DNA from: Flavobacteriales bacterium
Lineage (GTDB): Bacteria > Bacteroidota > Bacteroidia > Flavobacteriales_D > Sanyastnellaceae
NCBI GenBank assembly: GCA_030828175.1
Contig: JAURDB010000011.1
Coordinates: 1-34,340 of the forward strand
Direction of reading: 5' to 3'
DNA length: 34,340 nt
This document shows positions 1 through 33,219 of the stretch, piece after piece. The first letter of the stretch is position 1. Every line of letters starts with the position of its first letter. A program made the translations under genes and the position numbers. Below the pieces are notes generated by a model, which was not told the origin of the DNA, ran no database searches, and was given only the letters and a program-made list of their open reading frames with translations.

Positions 1-93
1 GGTGGATTGGCCCGAGGCACTTGGGTGCGATGCAAAACAAGCCACAACAGTGACCATCATAAACCGGGTCCCAGGAAATCGCATTTTCGTCAT
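1..93 (-). CDS. N-terminus of an exported protein (partial, runs off left edge)
   Basis: This 31-codon fragment is not in the ORF track because it has no stop inside the window. Its ATG overlaps the TGA of coaX as ATGA, so it is very probably the next gene of the same operon and translationally coupled. The visible residues look like a signal peptide: basic residues (MTKMRF), a hydrophobic core (MMVTVVACFA) and a small-residue cleavage zone (SASGQ). The product is therefore probably periplasmic or outer-membrane. In Bacteroidota coaX is often followed by an outer-membrane protein gene, which would fit, but too little is visible to name the family. Confidence 0.7.
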   Translation of the reverse strand, partial: MTKMRFPGTRFMMVTVVACFASHPSASGQST

Positions 94-872
94 GTCTTGG
101 ACTCTTTCAGCAAAAGGGCTCCCCCTCGAAGCACCAGGTTCGGGTCTGCGAAAGTCTGCCATCCCCCCAAACCTGCAAAATGTTCCGCGTCTCCTCCCGT
201 GAGGATGACTTCGGCATCTTCGGCGAATTCCATCAGACCCCTGGCCACAGCTTGAACAGCGTGAAGGGATGCCCATGGGATTCCCGCACGGATGGCGGCT
301 TCTGTATCGGTGCCAAGGGCACCGTCAGGCCCAGGCGATATGTTCCATCGGTTGGCATCGTCCGGTTGTATTTCGGGCAGTCCGGCTCGCCGCATCGATG
401 ACGCTTGAAGGCGCAGTCCGGGAAGGATGGCTCCCCCCTTCCAAGCGCCCTTGGAAAGGAGGTCTACCGTAATGCAGGTCCCTGCGTCGATGATGACAAA
501 ACTTCCCCCGGGGCGCCGGTGGTGGCACGCCGCCGCTGCCGCAATCCGATCGGACCCCGGTTGTCCACTTCGGTATTCAATCCGAAACGGTACCCTTGAC
601 CAAGGGTCGAGCGGCAAACACTCGGATCGATGGACGTTGAAAGCCGCGCAGACAAGGTTCAGCCAGTCTTTCGGGGCAGCGGGGGGATTTGGGCGATTCA
701 GCCGATGGCAACTTTCAAAATGCCACGATGTCCATGGGCCTTCCGGCGCCCAGGAATCTGGCCCGATGTCGGACATCCTGTTCCACGCAACGTCGGAAAC
801 ATCTTGGATCTCGCCTTCATTTACGGCGGCATATTTCAAACGGGTCCCACCGGGGTCAAGCAACAATTTCAC
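90..872 (-). CDS. coaX: Type III pantothenate kinase
   Basis: The 260-residue protein matches the length and motif order of CoaX, which phosphorylates pantothenate in the first step of coenzyme A synthesis in the cytoplasm. Visible ASKHA-fold motifs are the N-terminal phosphate loop LLLDPGGTRLK, the substrate-side GSDRIAA, the second phosphate motif IDAGTCITVD with GGAILPGL just after it, and a late adenosine motif ILTGGDA. The first loop reads DPGGT where the family usually has D-x-G-N-T; the catalytic Asp is kept but the Asn is Gly. The ATG overlaps the stop of gldE-gldD as ATGA, and the gene after it overlaps in the same way. The identification rests on motifs only; the Gly substitution could affect activity but the rest is intact. 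Confidence 0.9.
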   Translation of the reverse strand: MKLLLDPGGTRLKYAAVNEGEIQDVSDVAWNRMSDIGPDSWAPEGPWTSWHFESCHRLNRPNPPAAPKDWLNLVCAAFNVHRSECLPLDPWSRVPFRIEYRSGQPGSDRIAAAAACHHRRPGGSFVIIDAGTCITVDLLSKGAWKGGAILPGLRLQASSMRRAGLPEIQPDDANRWNISPGPDGALGTDTEAAIRAGIPWASLHAVQAVARGLMEFAEDAEVILTGGDAEHFAGLGGWQTFADPNLVLRGGALLLKESKT

Positions 873-2773
873 TTCCAGCTGAGGTTGGCCATGAAGTAGT
901 CGAGGTCGGCGTCGATTCTTTCCACCACGGGGGCCAAGGAATCGCCGTTCGGTCGCACTTCAAAATAGAGGGCTCCGCGCACGAATCGATCGCTTCCGTC
1001 GGTGCAGAGGAACTGAATGGGACTGGCGGCATCTCCGGCCAAAGCCCACTTCACTGCCATCCCTCCGGACTCGTATTCCCGATGGCTGACTTGAATGGCA
1101 TCGGCTTTGACCTCGTGTTCATAGGCGAGCTGAAAGGCATCCTCGACCACGGGTTCCAGCTGGACAGCTCCAGCGTACGTGCAATGCACCCTCGCCTTGT
1201 AGTCGGGATAGACCAGGTTGAACCAGCAACTGTCGGGAGGAAACTCCTGAACAGGTTCTACCCAAGCCGATTGCGACACCCCAATGGCGAGCGGGCATGG
1301 TAGCTCGACACTGCGGTAGCTCGTATCGTGCAATGCGATTCGGAAATAGCCTTTGGGACGCGGTACGGGCGTTGGTCCATTACAGGACAGGAGCATGCCG
1401 GAGCAAGCAAGAAGAAGCGCAGCCAATCCTGCGCTGTTTCTTCCCTTGTTTGGAAACGACCGGGTTTTGGAGGGTGAGGGGTCTTCTCCCTGGGGCAGAC
1501 GGCGGACTTTGACCTGGAGCACCCGTCTCCGGTCCACCGCTTCTGCGACCAATTGAACACCAGCATGTTCCAATGTCTCACCGGGCTTTGGCAAACGTGC
1601 GAGTTGTTCCACCACGAAGCCGCCGAGTGTATCGCTCTCTCCTTTCGCTGCTTCAAATGCACCGCCATCCAATTCCATGATGCGATAGACATCCACCAGG
1701 GCAGTCTTCCCTTGGAATGCCACAGTGTCCTCATCGATGCGGGAGTAGAAAACATCCTCGTCGTCGAATTCGTCGGAAATGTCCCCGACAATTTCTTCGA
1801 TGACATCCTCCAATGTGACAATCCCGCTGGTGCCTCCATATTCATCCACCACCACGGCGAGGTGGACCTTCATGGCTTGAAAGTCGCGCAGCAAATCGTC
1901 GATCATACGGTTTTCAGGCACGAAAAACGGTTGGCGCAGCAAGGTGTTCCACCCGAAGTCCTCTTCGTTGCGATAGGGCAATAGGTCCTTGGCGTAGAGA
2001 ATGCCCCGAATCTGGTCCAGGCCTTCCTCATAGACGGGAACGCGGCTGAAACCCGATTCCGCGAGGGTGGCCTTGAGATCGGCCCAAGGCATGTTGAACG
2101 GAATGGCAGTTACATCGGTTCGGGGCCGCATGATTTGCTTGACATCCTTGCTTCCGAAATTGACGATGCCGCTCAGAATCCGGTTTTCTTCCTCCGTCCT
2201 GTCTTCTGAATCGGTGACGTTGACAGCGTGCTCCAAATCTTCCACCGAAAGTTCAGTGGAGGATTCCCCTTTCGGCGAGAACCAGTCGGCCATGGCGTTC
2301 AATGGCATCCAGATGGGGCGCAATATGCCTTTGGCCAAAGTGAGGGGGCGGGCCATCCGACCTGCCAGGACCAGAGGGTTCCGGTTGGCATACACCTTGG
2401 GCAGCACCTCGCCGAAGAGCACGATGAGAAAAGTGACGCCGAAAACATGCAGCAAGGTTCCCAATACGGGTGGAAGGGTTGTCAGCCCGTGCTGCATGAT
2501 GACCGTCGAGAGCAGAATGATGAGGATGTTGACGGAGTTGTTGAGGACCAGGATGGTGGCCAGCAGCTGTCGTGCTCCCTGCTCGGCATCGGGAGTGTTC
2601 AGAAGCTGGAGCACCAGCTTGGAACGGGCGTCATCTGTTTCCTCCAGCGCTTGCCTGTCCTGTGGACTCATGGAAAAAAAGGCGATTTCACTCCCCGAGA
2701 TGAATGCGCTGGCTACCAGAAGAAGCAAGGAAGCGATGGATGCAATCCACAAAAGGGAGTCCGAGAGGTCCAT
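869..2773 (-). CDS. gldE-gldD: GldE-GldD fusion: CNNM/CorC-type membrane protein joined to gliding lipoprotein
   Basis: One open frame of 634 codons contains two proteins normally encoded separately. Residues 1-426 are GldE: a DUF21/CNNM membrane domain with hydrophobic segments near 7-28, 71-95 and 100-130, two CBS motifs (QIMRPRTDV; VVVDEYGGTSGIVTLEDVIE) and a CorC/HlyC domain ending at VRRL. After a 20-residue basic linker comes a hydrophobic stretch (about 447-463) ending in a lipobox, MLLSC (Cys464), followed by PRPKGYFRI, the usual start of mature GldD, and a full-length GldD domain to the end. GldD is needed for gliding and type IX secretion in Flavobacterium, and GldE is reported to support GldD. 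The ORF track start at 2914 lies inside ssb; ATG 2773, four bases after the ssb stop, gives the normal GldE N-terminus. No stop or obvious ATG separates the two halves. Confidence 0.88.
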   Translation of the reverse strand: MDLSDSLLWIASIASLLLLVASAFISGSEIAFFSMSPQDRQALEETDDARSKLVLQLLNTPDAEQGARQLLATILVLNNSVNILIILLSTVIMQHGLTTLPPVLGTLLHVFGVTFLIVLFGEVLPKVYANRNPLVLAGRMARPLTLAKGILRPIWMPLNAMADWFSPKGESSTELSVEDLEHAVNVTDSEDRTEEENRILSGIVNFGSKDVKQIMRPRTDVTAIPFNMPWADLKATLAESGFSRVPVYEEGLDQIRGILYAKDLLPYRNEEDFGWNTLLRQPFFVPENRMIDDLLRDFQAMKVHLAVVVDEYGGTSGIVTLEDVIEEIVGDISDEFDDEDVFYSRIDEDTVAFQGKTALVDVYRIMELDGGAFEAAKGESDTLGGFVVEQLARLPKPGETLEHAGVQLVAEAVDRRRVLQVKVRRLPQGEDPSPSKTRSFPNKGRNSAGLAALLLACSGMLLSCNGPTPVPRPKGYFRIALHDTSYRSVELPCPLAIGVSQSAWVEPVQEFPPDSCWFNLVYPDYKARVHCTYAGAVQLEPVVEDAFQLAYEHEVKADAIQVSHREYESGGMAVKWALAGDAASPIQFLCTDGSDRFVRGALYFEVRPNGDSLAPVVERIDADLDYFMANLSWK

Positions 2774-2777
2774 TCGC

Positions 2778-3197
2778 TCAGAAGGGAAGGGAGGAAGCGT
2801 CGATCGGGTAGGGCCCTTTGAGCGGCTCCGAGTCTGTTGCCGATGGCGGACCAGGTGCTTTGTCAGATCGCGGGGTGAGCAGTTCGAGCCTGTCCGCCAC
2901 GACTTCTGTGGCACGGTGTTCTACGCCATCTCCGTCTTGCCAGCTGCGGGTGCGCAATCTTCCTTCTATGTACACCTTGTGGCCCGTTTCGAGGCAGCCT
3001 TCGGCAAATTCCGCCAGTTCCCTCCACAAAACTACTTGATGCCACTCTGTTCTTTCCCGCTGGGTTCCTGAGGCATCTCGGTAGCGCTCCGAGGTGGCCA
3101 AGGACAGTTTGCACAAGGCCTGACCGGACTCCAACCACCGCAAGGCGGGAGGTTTCCCTAGGTGGCCGATCAGCATGACCTTGTTCAATCCTGGCAT
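2778..3197 (-). CDS. ssb: Single-stranded DNA-binding protein
   Basis: This is a 139-residue SSB with one OB fold (about residues 1-105), recognisable from NKVMLIGHLGK at the start and the EWHQVVLW and GHKVYIEGRLRTRSW core strands. SSB coats single-stranded DNA in replication and repair and recruits partners through its C-terminal tip. I chose ATG 3197 (MPGLNKVML) because family members begin there; the track start at 3239 adds 14 unsupported residues. The tail is short and ends IDASSLPF. The hydrophobic end is kept but most of the acidic residues usual in the DDDIPF-type tip are missing. It lies between mutY and gldE with short gaps, as in other Bacteroidota. It may be a second, operon-specific SSB rather than the replicative one. 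Confidence 0.9.
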   Translation of the reverse strand: MPGLNKVMLIGHLGKPPALRWLESGQALCKLSLATSERYRDASGTQRERTEWHQVVLWRELAEFAEGCLETGHKVYIEGRLRTRSWQDGDGVEHRATEVVADRLELLTPRSDKAPGPPSATDSEPLKGPYPIDASSLPF

Positions 3198-3243
3198 GGG
3201 TGCAAAGTACCGAAGGAGGCCAATTTGGACCGCTCGCAAAACC

Positions 3244-4260
3244 TCAATTCTTCACAATCCATGACCGAAGCTCGGGTAGGACTTTGTCAATGATGCGGGG
3301 CCAGTTGGCATCGCCTTGCTCCACATTGACCCAACGGCCATGGCCTCGCTTGGCATCTGGTGCATCCTCTACCTTGAACCACGCCGTCATCTTTCTGTGG
3401 GTGAGTATGTGCTGCACGGGCCCGAAAGCATCCGGATGCGCGCCATCTGATTTGGGACCCATGACGCATGGAAAGGCCTCCAGCTGAGACCAAATGCCCT
3501 TTTCCGGTCGGGTTTCAACCCACCATTCCCATCGGCCTGAGCGGCTTTTCCTGAGCGGAATAAGGAACTGAACGTCCCATTCCAGGGGCGACTTTTTGGG
3601 TTGCTTGACAGGGCGCTGCATCTGTGTTCCGCGTTCTCGGGACAGGCATGATTCCGAGAGCGGACAGTTGAGGCAGTCGGGGGATTGAGGGGTACAGACC
3701 AGGGCTCCCAACTCCATCCAACCTTGATTGGAGTCCCCAGGAGCTTCCGTTGCCACGAGTTCCGCACAGAAAGCCTCGATGGCTTTTCTTCCAGCCTTGC
3801 GGTCCACGGGTTCAGCGATATCGAACAAGCGGGACATCACGCGTTGCACATTGCCATCGATGACCGGGATCGCCTCATGGAAGCAAATGCTGGCAATCGC
3901 AGCAGCGGTGTAGGGACCGATTCCAGGCAGGGCGGCCCATTCTTCCGCTTTCACAGGCAGCTGGCCGTTGCGTTCTGAAACGATGCGCTGTGCAGCCAAA
4001 TGGAGGTTCCGGGCCCGACTGTAGTAGCCGAGGCCCTTCCATAGGGACATGACTTGCTCGGTGGGGGCAGCTGCGAGATCTGCAACGGTGGGGAATGCGG
4101 AAAGGAACCGCTCCCAATACCCCTTGCCTTGTGCCACGCGCGTCTGCTGAAGGATGACTTCAGACAACCAAATGGAATATGGCTCGGGTGCTGCCCTCCA
4201 TGGAAGATCCCGGGCGTTTTCTCTGTACCAAGACAGCAGCTTTTGGGTTAGCGGGTGCAC
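3244..4260 (-). CDS. mutY: A/G-specific adenine DNA glycosylase
   Basis: MutY removes adenine mispaired with 8-oxoguanine, starting base-excision repair. The 338-residue protein shows the family signature in order: catalytic Glu in SEVILQQT, the helix-hairpin-helix LPGIGPYTAAA, catalytic Asp in VIDGNVQR, and the iron-sulfur cluster ligands spaced C-x6-C-x2-C-x5-C (CTPQSPDCLNCPLSESC). A C-terminal NUDIX-like domain that senses 8-oxoG follows, with LTHRKMTAWF. The start is GTG (4258-4260), giving MHPLTQKLLSWY, the normal N-terminus. It is the first gene of the minus-strand operon and diverges from the HU gene. No convincing promoter of its own is visible. Confidence 0.96.
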   Translation of the reverse strand: MHPLTQKLLSWYRENARDLPWRAAPEPYSIWLSEVILQQTRVAQGKGYWERFLSAFPTVADLAAAPTEQVMSLWKGLGYYSRARNLHLAAQRIVSERNGQLPVKAEEWAALPGIGPYTAAAIASICFHEAIPVIDGNVQRVMSRLFDIAEPVDRKAGRKAIEAFCAELVATEAPGDSNQGWMELGALVCTPQSPDCLNCPLSESCLSRERGTQMQRPVKQPKKSPLEWDVQFLIPLRKSRSGRWEWWVETRPEKGIWSQLEAFPCVMGPKSDGAHPDAFGPVQHILTHRKMTAWFKVEDAPDAKRGHGRWVNVEQGDANWPRIIDKVLPELRSWIVKN

Positions 4261-8277: not shown

Positions 8278-8354
8278 GGCCGAAATTTGGTGTCTTTATT
8301 TGCACCGGCACCGCCGGGATGAAATAATTCTGAGCAATCGCCATTGAAGCATTG

Positions 8355-9923
8355 ATGACGCGCACTCCCCACATCCTTTGGGCCGATGATGAGATCGACC
8401 TCTTGAAGCCGCACATCCTCTTTTTGGAGGGTAAGGGCTACGAAGTCACAGGTTTTACCGATGGCGCTTCATTGTTGGAGGCTTTGGAGGCGGACCGAAT
8501 CGTCGATGTGGTGTTTCTCGACGAGAACATGCCCGGCTTGACGGGTCTGGAGACCTTGCAGCGCATCAAGGAAAAGCGCCCCCACCTTCCGTGTGTGATG
8601 ATCACCAAGAGTGAAGAAGAACACATCATGGAAGAGGCCATCGGGTCCAAAATGGTGGATTACTTGATCAAGCCCCTGAATCCAAACCAAATCCTGCTTT
8701 CGCTGAAGAAAATCCTCGACGAGAAGCGCTTGGTGGGAGAGAAGGCGATGAGTGACTACCAGCGCGAATTCCGCGAGCTCGGAATGCGGCTGATGGACAG
8801 GCTGGGTCGGGAAGATTGGGAAGACATCTACAAACGATTGGTCCATTGGGACATCGAACTTTCTGCTTCAGGGGACCAAGGGATGGCGGAAGTCTTGAGA
8901 ATGCAGCGTGCTGATGCCAGCCGTCAATTCGCCAAATACGTCACTTCCCACTACGGAGACTGGTTGTCTGATTTGGATCGCTGCGGTTCCGAGGAGGACC
9001 CTTTGCTCGCTCCCCATGTGATGTCGGAATCTGTGAAGCCCATGCTGGAGCAGGGGAAGCGGATCCTCTTCGTCTTGATCGACAATTTCCGTTACGATCA
9101 ATGGCGTGCGTTGGGCCCCGCCCTCGCTGATGCTTGGCAGGTCCAATCCGAAAGAATGCACTGGAGCTTTTTGCCCACAGCGACCCAATACGCCCGAAAT
9201 GCCATGTTTGCAGGGATGGTTCCCCTTCGCATCTCGCAGGTTTACCCGCAGTGGTGGAAGGATGAGCAGGCACAGGGCTCAAAGAATGCGCACGAGGCAG
9301 ATCTCTTGGGAGCGCAATTGGATCGATGGGGCTTCAAGGGGAGCTGGGGATACCACAAGATCACGGACCTGGCTGCAGGCCGGAAATTGCTCGAGGATTT
9401 TCACCAGATCAAGGCACGGGACTTCACGGCTGTGGTCTTCAATTTTGTGGACATGCTCAGCCATGCCCGAACGGAGAGCGAGATCATCAAGGAACTCGCA
9501 GAGGACGAAGGTGCCTATCGGTCGTTGACCATGAGCTGGTTTGAGCACAGTCCCCTGCGCGAACTGCTTGAACGGGCGGCAGAGGAGGGCATGGAGGTCG
9601 TATTGACATCGGACCACGGAACGGTGCAGGTCGATAATCCCATTCGCGTGCAGGGCGAAAAGGAAGTCACAGACAATCCCAGATACAAGACCGGGCGCAA
9701 CCTTCGACACGACGACGATGTTTTCTCAGTGACGGATCCCGAGGCATTTGGATTGCCCAAGGCGCATCTCTCCAGCCGTTACATTTTTGCAATGGAACGA
9801 GATTTCATGGTTTACCCCAACAACTTCAACCGGTTTGTTCGGTACCTCACCGGTACATTCCAGCACGGCGGCATTTCCATGGAGGAGATGCTTGTTCCCT
9901 TGGTGCATTTGAAGCCGAGATGA
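8355..9923 (+). CDS. porX: PorX-type response regulator with PglZ/alkaline-phosphatase-like domain
   Basis: Residues 1-125 are a receiver domain: acidic pocket WADDE, phospho-acceptor Asp in VVFLDENMPG, switch residue in MITKSEE and Lys in LIKPLN. A helical linker (about 125-220) leads to a PglZ / alkaline-phosphatase-superfamily domain with metal-site motifs VLIDNFRYDQWR and TSDHGTVQV. This two-part structure is PorX, the partner of the PorY kinase, which controls type IX secretion genes in Bacteroidota and has phosphodiesterase activity. The ORF track starts at a TTG; ATG 8355 is preferred. It overlaps tsaE by ATGA. A possible weak promoter (TTTG-N22-TAATTCTG, 8299-8332) lies upstream. Confidence 0.94.
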   Translation: MTRTPHILWADDEIDLLKPHILFLEGKGYEVTGFTDGASLLEALEADRIVDVVFLDENMPGLTGLETLQRIKEKRPHLPCVMITKSEEEHIMEEAIGSKMVDYLIKPLNPNQILLSLKKILDEKRLVGEKAMSDYQREFRELGMRLMDRLGREDWEDIYKRLVHWDIELSASGDQGMAEVLRMQRADASRQFAKYVTSHYGDWLSDLDRCGSEEDPLLAPHVMSESVKPMLEQGKRILFVLIDNFRYDQWRALGPALADAWQVQSERMHWSFLPTATQYARNAMFAGMVPLRISQVYPQWWKDEQAQGSKNAHEADLLGAQLDRWGFKGSWGYHKITDLAAGRKLLEDFHQIKARDFTAVVFNFVDMLSHARTESEIIKELAEDEGAYRSLTMSWFEHSPLRELLERAAEEGMEVVLTSDHGTVQVDNPIRVQGEKEVTDNPRYKTGRNLRHDDDVFSVTDPEAFGLPKAHLSSRYIFAMERDFMVYPNNFNRFVRYLTGTFQHGGISMEEMLVPLVHLKPR

Positions 9924-31028: not shown

Positions 31029-32714
31029 ATGATCAGCCTTCTCCAAGTCTTGAACCTCCTGGGCGCATTGGGCCTCTTCATCTACGGCATGGTCGTGATG
31101 AGCGAGGCCATCCAGCGCCTCACAGGAGACCGCATGAGAAGGGCGGTGGGAAGGGTGACCCGCAAGCCGGAGCGGGCATACCTCGCGGGGCTTTCCCTTA
31201 CAGGCATCCTCCAATCGAGCAGCGCCATCTCGGTCATCGCAGTGAGCTTTGTCCAGGTGGGATTGCTGCGGTTGTCCGAGGCTTTCTTCTTCCTTTTGGG
31301 CGCCAATGTGGGTACGACGGTCACGGGTTGGCTCGTGGCCCTCACCTTGAGCAAGCCTTCTCTGGGCAGCCTCGCGTTGCCCTTGTTGACCCTGGCGTTG
31401 CCACTGTTGTTTTTTCGGCGTCGCAGAACGCGATCGTTGGGAGAAGCCATCATCGGCTTTGCCTTGATGTTCGTGGGACTGGGATTGCTCAAGGCCGGGG
31501 TTCCACCGATAACGGAAGCGGGCATGGCGGAGTTCTTGGACTTCATCAACGTGGGAGGCGTTGGAACTGTCCTCGGCGCAGTGGGCATAGGAGTGCTGGC
31601 CACCGCGGCATTGCAGAGTTCGTCGGCCGTACTCGCCTTGATCATCACCCTCGCAGCAGGCGGCATCGTCACCGAGACGATAGGAGCGGCCGTGGTTCTG
31701 GGGGCCAACATTGGCACCACTTCCACGGCCGTGTTGGCATCGCTCGTGCTCGGTAGGGAAGCGCGCAGGGCAGCGATGGCTCACGTTCTCATCAACCTAC
31801 TCGGTGCCATCCTGTTTTTGCCAGTGCTGACCCCTGCCTTGCATATGGTGCATTGGTTTCTGGAGCCCGGTGGTGATTTCATTGCGGATGTGGCCATCGT
31901 GCTGGCCTTGTTTCATACAATGTTCAACCTATTGGTAACCAGCATTTTTGGACTCTTCCCACGCCCTTTGCTTTGGCTGACCCGAAGGCTGATTCCGGGA
32001 GAAGGTGGACGCGAGTTTCGGACCCCCGTGGTGACCGTCAGTGCCATGGATGCCCCTGAATTACAGGTGCTCGAGGCCCAGCGCGAGGCCGAACATCATC
32101 ACGAGTTGAGCATTCGGATGATCCAAGGTTTGGTGAAAGTCATGAGCATTACAGATGCCATAAAGCGCCAGAGGGAGGAGGAGCGCCTGAAGGAACTGAA
32201 GATGTTGAGCGGACGGTATGAATCGGAGGTCAAGACGTTTCTCGAGCGGCTGGCGCGCAGCAAGACATCCGGCGCTACGTATCGTCAAGTGCAGTTTTTG
32301 CTTGAGTGGTGCACCGACATAGGGCAAACGGTTGAACTGATGCACGACTTCTTGGAGGTTCAGATGGAGCGGGAGCGCAATGAGGTCTTTTTTGCACCCA
32401 AGCAGAGGGCGAGATTGGTAGCCATGCTGGAAGAACTGCGTCAGGGCTTGGATGCCATGGCGGGGATGAATCATCCGGCACAACAGGGCAAGATTGTCAT
32501 CCGAGAACAGATCAGTCGCGTCGAACGTCACCTTGCAAGCGCCACGATTCTCCGGGAGCAAATGCGGACAAAACACCTCGAGGATTCCAGAAGAGGTCGG
32601 TATTCCGTCGAAAGCGGCAGAACATTCAATGAAATGGCCAACTTGTTGGAAGAGATAGGATTGCGAATGGGAATCCTCGTCTCGAAATACGAGATGATTT
32701 TCAGGGCTTCGTAA
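31029..32714 (+). CDS. Na/Pi cotransporter family protein with PhoU-like C-terminus
   Basis: The 561-residue protein has an N-terminal membrane half (about 1-320) with the duplicated QSS signature of the PNaS family: GILQSSSAISVI and AALQSSSAVLAL, each followed by a glycine-rich GAN-x-GTT motif (LGANVGTTVTG, LGANIGTTSTA). Such proteins move phosphate with sodium, or in some cases other ions. The C-terminal part (about 350-561) is a charged helical domain like PhoU, a probable regulator of the transport half. The track's start at 30915 is inside the previous gene; ATG 31029 gives MISLLQVLNLLG. Substrate is not certain. The last 14 bases overlap the convergent lipoprotein gene. Confidence 0.93.
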   Translation: MISLLQVLNLLGALGLFIYGMVVMSEAIQRLTGDRMRRAVGRVTRKPERAYLAGLSLTGILQSSSAISVIAVSFVQVGLLRLSEAFFFLLGANVGTTVTGWLVALTLSKPSLGSLALPLLTLALPLLFFRRRRTRSLGEAIIGFALMFVGLGLLKAGVPPITEAGMAEFLDFINVGGVGTVLGAVGIGVLATAALQSSSAVLALIITLAAGGIVTETIGAAVVLGANIGTTSTAVLASLVLGREARRAAMAHVLINLLGAILFLPVLTPALHMVHWFLEPGGDFIADVAIVLALFHTMFNLLVTSIFGLFPRPLLWLTRRLIPGEGGREFRTPVVTVSAMDAPELQVLEAQREAEHHHELSIRMIQGLVKVMSITDAIKRQREEERLKELKMLSGRYESEVKTFLERLARSKTSGATYRQVQFLLEWCTDIGQTVELMHDFLEVQMERERNEVFFAPKQRARLVAMLEELRQGLDAMAGMNHPAQQGKIVIREQISRVERHLASATILREQMRTKHLEDSRRGRYSVESGRTFNEMANLLEEIGLRMGILVSKYEMIFRAS

Positions 32715-33219
32715 CCAGGGCCGTCAGGAGCGTGTCGCTCGATTGGAGGTCCCGGTCCACGATGTGCACCGCAAAGCGAAGTGTATCCCAATCCGAAGTG
32801 AGGAAATATCGGGGCTCCAGGGCCACGGTGATGGTTCCACGTTGCGCCTTGTTTTGTCCGGTTGGGGCAATCAGGGGCGCTCGGTAATGGAAAGGGACTT
32901 GCCCGAGCTCAGGGTTCAGTTCAATGGTTACCCATTGGTCATCCCTCCATTCTTGGTAGGTACAGAAAACGTTGTGATGGAAAGGACAGGACGGACAGAA
33001 GGCCTCGGTGGTATCGGACTGCTCCAATCCGAAGTTTCCATCGCCATCCTCGAATCCCAGCAGAAGTGTTCCGGATTCTCCTTCAGTAATCAGGTCAATG
33101 GAGGTGAGTCTCGGTTCGGGTGGCAAGGAGACGGGAGGTTCGCAAGCCGAGAACAGCAAGGCCAACACCAAGACAACAAAACCACCATTGGGTAAGATGC
33201 AATTCAAATCCTTGCTCAC
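32701..33219 (-). CDS. Small lipoprotein of unknown function
   Basis: The 172-residue product has a signal sequence (GFVVLVLALLFSAC) with the lipobox FSAC, so it should be lipid-anchored in the envelope. The mature part carries GFEDGDGNFGL, a motif I have seen in uncharacterised Bacteroidota lipoproteins that may bind calcium, and a FCPSCPFH segment with two close cysteines. No function can be assigned. The start is GTG at 33219 (no ATG is in frame); TTG 33207 is an alternative. It is divergent from the acyl-protein synthetase with 30 bases between starts and overlaps the transporter gene at its 3' end. Confidence 0.75.
   Translation of the reverse strand: MSKDLNCILPNGGFVVLVLALLFSACEPPVSLPPEPRLTSIDLITEGESGTLLLGFEDGDGNFGLEQSDTTEAFCPSCPFHHNVFCTYQEWRDDQWVTIELNPELGQVPFHYRAPLIAPTGQNKAQRGTITVALEPRYFLTSDWDTLRFAVHIVDRDLQSSDTLLTALVTKP

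Follow-up and report, generated by a model that had tools for sequence, protein, structure and literature searches.

The gldE-gldD reading frame and its surroundings

The window, meaning the whole 34,340-nucleotide stretch of DNA analysed here, is contig C22 of a 2.32-Mb draft metagenome assembly. It contains a compact set of genes, mutY - ssb - gldE/gldD - coaX, whose features are collected in Table 1. The first-pass annotation had described a single 634-codon frame at 869-2773 in which GldE is followed by GldD. That frame stands, with the correction that the gene lies on the minus strand, and translation of the minus-strand frame revealed no internal stop codons.

Both halves of the encoded protein are complete, as had been claimed. 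NCBIfam profile searches matched the GldE part to TIGR03520 over its full length (residues 16-424), with 499.8 bits against a curated cut-off of 376.05. The GldD part matched TIGR03512, also over its full length (residues 459-634), with 144.4 bits against a curated cut-off of 120. It also scored 146.3 bits against PF25593, for which the cut-off is 27. In Pfam terms, the GldE half comprises a CNNM domain (residues 14-196), two CBS domains and CorC_HlyC (345-426), and GldD_lipo covers residues 468-633. The true fusion of gldE and gldD in one reading frame is confirmed.

Partner genes of gliding and type IX secretion (T9SS) were found in the same genome, namely a GldJ match of 379 bits in the profile search, below its strict cut-off, 42 matches to T9SS tails, and PorX. 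The presence of GldJ and of many T9SS cargo tails in the genus argues that the machine is in use. PorX, a T9SS response regulator with a PglZ domain, is encoded in the window at 8352-9923 on the plus strand (NF052313, 728 bits), 5.6 kb from the fused gene. At 32701-33219 on the minus strand, the window also encodes a short predicted lipoprotein that contains LLFSACEPP and has no Pfam match.

Table 1. Features at the gldE-gldD locus, in window coordinates.
Feature	Position	Strand	Remarks
Fused gldE-gldD gene	869..2773	minus	634 codons + stop; ATG 2773-2771, stop 871-869
GldE part (CNNM transmembrane domain, CBS pair, CorC_HlyC)	1502..2728	minus	TIGR03520, ~500 bits
CorC_HlyC domain, residues 345-426, cytoplasmic end of GldE	1496..1741	minus	Pfam
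Linker, residues 425-446 (22 residues)	1436..1501	minus	hypervariable, disordered in model, basic only in the window's species
Internal hydrophobic stretch, residues 447-463	1385..1435	minus	predicted helix 447-462
TTG, residue 450, candidate internal start of the first-pass annotation	1424..1426	minus	not conserved, not credible
Internal lipobox LLSC with Cys464	1382..1393	minus	Cys present in all 15 fused proteins
Mature GldD domain, residues 465-634	872..1381	minus	Pfam/NCBIfam profiles; modelled alone
coaX, type III pantothenate kinase, downstream	90..872	minus	overlaps gldD stop codon (GTGA)
ssb, upstream	2778..3239	minus	ends 4 bases before the fused ATG
mutY, upstream	3244..4260	minus	neighbour gene

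Distribution and origins of the fusion

gldE and gldD are described as separate genes in Flavobacterium johnsoniae and other Bacteroidota (Hunnicutt and McBride 2001, as cited in PMC9127263). Named Bacteroidota yielded 80 loci, and all 69 complete gldE/gldD pairs among them were separate, mostly overlapping or within a few bases of each other, in agreement with the starting premise that the two are normally separate neighbours. In the phylum sample, one of the 92 genomes with GldD above the cut-off carried the fusion, and this was the window's own genome. The order sample added one further fusion, G021, from another family. No fusion was found outside the genus among the 104 genomes of the family with GldD. 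The genus sample comprised 17 genomes, 16 of which have GldD. The first-pass annotation had proposed a search for the same fusion in relatives; this search recovered one open gldE-gldD frame, 634 to 743 codons long, in 14 of those 16, in addition to the independent case of G021. G156 and G150, the remaining two, have separate genes, one pair having a 4-base stop/start overlap and the other lying 4 bases apart, so the fusion is not essential.

The source is a draft assembly (84% complete, 252 contigs), so that the junction might be suspected of being an artefact of assembly or sequencing, or part of a dead gene. We regard this as extremely improbable, as 14 genus assemblies agree and the frame stays open through a fast-changing linker. 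The ratio dN/dS in the fused genes was 0.03-0.08 for the GldE half and 0.04-0.16 for the GldD half, and about 0.3-2 for the linker, a short segment for which the estimate is noisy. Both halves are thus under strong purifying selection, which speaks against a dead gene, and the linker is nearly free. A frameshift introduced by assembly at the junction is ruled out for the genus by the agreement of the 14 independent assemblies. The fused state is a real and rare trait that marks the genus.

Trees of GldE and GldD split the genus into two groups. One holds G089, which is fused without a linker, and G156, whose genes are separate; the other is a clade of 14 members, made up of 13 fused ones and G150. 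The position of G150 differed between trees, at the base of the 13 fused members without support in one and among them in another, and its separate genes may reflect the ancestral condition, a split at a later point or an indel error. The gldD frame of G150 stays open from well before the gldE stop (L064, 4164-4310, plus strand), which makes a recent split or an indel error possible. By parsimony, the family tree requires four changes of fusion state with G021 included, and the AU test rejects a single clade holding every fusion of the genus. The result fits two origins within the genus and also one origin followed by two splits. For the genus as a whole, the grouping of G089 with G156 and the AU test rule out a single fusion event that was not followed by any split. 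G021 represents a separate origin, because its family mates are unfused and have a 4-base gldE/gldD overlap. Across Bacteroidota the two genes lie next to each other to begin with, in most cases with an overlap, and a small indel or the loss of a stop would therefore suffice to fuse them. The fusion probably arose in this way from an overlapping pair, either through a small indel or because the gldE stop was lost.

The junction and its internal lipobox

The hydrophobic stretch and the MLLSC motif with Cys464 that had been placed between the two halves were both found in the translated frame. In CNNM/CorC proteins the CBS/CorC part is cytoplasmic, and homologous structures are available (PDB 7m1t, 7cff and 4hg0). 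With this part in the cytoplasm, the next hydrophobic stretch would enter the membrane N-in and GldD would be periplasmic. The topology first proposed, with cytoplasmic CorC, an N-in segment and periplasmic GldD, is thus workable on the basis of what is known of CNNM/CorC proteins and of the homologous structures. In the AlphaFold2 model of the full-length protein, GldE and GldD are both folded, residues 429-447 form a disordered linker and residues 447-462 a helix. The input of the model was a ten-row alignment with nine relatives that have both genes in the same frame; for the sole purpose of aligning them, the stop between their genes was treated as a residue. The pTM of this model was 0.32, and we therefore make no claim on a GldE-GldD interface or contact. 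The best Foldseek match of GldD modelled alone (872-1381, minus strand; pLDDT 90) was a PsbP-like protein (PDB 8z9d chain P, E 4e-4, TM 0.45), a weak match to be taken as a lead only.

We compared the 15 fused proteins, including the independent fusion of G021. Between V421 and P471, Cys464 is the sole invariant column, and the -1 position of the lipobox is Gly or Ser in all 15. Of the 14 fused genus members, 13 have Gly at -1 and one has Ser, and the columns flanking these two positions vary, with an entropy of 1.3-3 bits. A conserved Cys preceded by Gly or Ser amid free variation points to a lipobox in use. The fused protein thus has the hydrophobic stretch, the lipobox with a small -1 residue and the Cys of a lipoprotein. 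The signal is not N-terminal, as it begins at about residue 447 of the frame.

The basic linker noted at the outset holds for the window's species, in which its net charge is +4, but it is not conserved. Among the fused members the net charge ranges from -6 to +4, which rules out a conserved basic linker as a topology signal. Ahead of the hydrophobic segment, the linkers of these proteins often carry a net charge close to zero or below it, in contrast with the positive n-region of a normal signal peptide, and this counts against cleavage by signal peptidase II (SPII). In the fused gene of G089 (L056, 3175-5058, plus strand) the linker is absent, and the hydrophobic stretch directly follows the last CorC strand.

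Ribosomes might also start near the hydrophobic stretch and thereby produce a separate pre-GldD, as the first-pass annotation had suggested from the TTG at residue 450. Some relatives do have ATG or TTG codons in the linker. However, no internal start is conserved across the fused members. In the window's gene this TTG is the only start-like codon 14 to 45 codons before the Cys, and it would yield a 14-residue signal without positive charge. The fused genes of G160 and G154 have no ATG, GTG or TTG in that interval, and in G080 the lone candidate is a GTG far upstream, which would leave a net-negative n-region. The lack of a plausible internal start in some fused species, including the window's, argues against re-initiation. 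It is disfavored as a general explanation for the fused genes, and we give it very little credence.

Probable processing of the fused protein and GldD anchoring in sister genera

We think it fairly probable that the fused gene yields one polytopic precursor, which receives a lipid and is cleaved by LspA (SPII) at an internal signal into GldE and a lipoprotein GldD. Translation would produce a single chain, the GldE part of which would insert like other CNNM/CorC proteins and leave its CBS and CorC domains on the cytoplasmic side. Next, the hydrophobic segment inside the chain would insert N-in and bring GldD to the periplasm, where Lgt would add diacylglycerol to Cys464 and LspA would cleave just before it. 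The outcome would be an ordinary GldE and a lipoprotein GldD, in a 1:1 ratio and made at the same place. The window's genome has an LspA gene, as do 16 of the 17 genomes of the genus. The literature searched contained no example of LspA acting on a signal located after a multi-spanning domain, which counts against this reading.

Six other genera of the family (g8, g10, g12, g16, g58 and g59) have a separate GldD that has lost the lipobox. It starts with a hydrophobic anchor that is typically aromatic-ended and, in most members, has 17-21 residues. Five lipobox changes were counted on the family tree. The loci for separate GldDs without a lipobox are L014, L020, L021, L024, L066-L069, L153-L156, L158 and L159, to which L161-L163, L171-L176 and L186-L188 are to be added; these proteins have a plain N-terminal membrane anchor although their family is named a lipoprotein.

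This pattern indicates that an unlipidated GldD anchored in the inner membrane is viable, and that the Cys is then lost. As the sister genera anchor GldD without it, the Cys is not needed for anchoring alone, and in the fused genus an unused Cys would be expected to drift. Its retention there speaks for continued lipidation and, in the simplest case, for a protein cut by LspA. A conserved Cys would also fit lipidation without cleavage. The main rival is a stable uncut fusion. GldE, a helix and GldD would then form a single inner-membrane protein of 70 kDa, whether Cys464 is lipidated or not, and GldD would work while tethered to GldE. In favor of this rival, the hydrophobic segment might cross the membrane, the uncleaved-looking N-terminal anchors of the sister genera indicate that tethering of GldD to the inner membrane is tolerated, and in the model a disordered tether and a short helix connect the two folded units. 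By itself, however, an uncut protein leaves unexplained why the Cys is strict and -1 is Gly/Ser while the surroundings vary freely, and the sister-genus anchors have lost this motif. We consider the uncut form unlikely, though a good deal less so than re-initiation. Among the three options initially put forward, the conserved Cys and -1 residue favor Lgt/LspA processing.

The conserved fusion ties GldE and GldD functionally. The first-pass annotation went further and saw in it support for a direct partnership. The functional link is supported, but this claim is too strong, given that the genes are already adjacent or overlapping and that a cut precursor is silent on lasting contact. The fusion adds to operon adjacency as evidence for the link and is not proof of a lasting complex. 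Together with the membrane-anchored GldD of the sister genera, it places the work of GldD at the inner membrane. Should cleavage at the internal lipobox take place, Lgt and LspA would accept a signal located after a multi-spanning domain, and lipoprotein predictors limited to the N terminus would miss such signals.

No report of a GldE-GldD fusion was found in the literature searched. The components are known, and the fused arrangement appears to be new. It shares with gldE and gldD of F. johnsoniae the two protein families, their order, their adjacency and the GldD lipobox. In F. johnsoniae and other Bacteroidota, however, there are two genes, mostly with an overlap of a few bases or nearly so, whereas here a single frame carries the lipoprotein signal internally. 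The CNNM/CorC transporters of the structures named above have the same CNNM domain, CBS pair and CorC domain, but they end after the cytoplasmic domain, and the fused protein continues with an extra membrane segment and a periplasmic domain. We lean towards a natural bacterial membrane polyprotein, in which a CNNM-type transporter and a lipoprotein would be made as one chain and separated by LspA at an internal lipobox, and which would have evolved two or three times from an overlapping gldE/gldD pair. An LspA-cut polyprotein would be notable if shown. The cytochrome b/c1 precursor FbcH of Bradyrhizobium also joins a polytopic membrane protein to an exported protein and is cut at an internal signal sequence. 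FbcH is cut by signal peptidase I, whereas the motif of the fused GldE-GldD is predicted to be of the signal peptidase II type.
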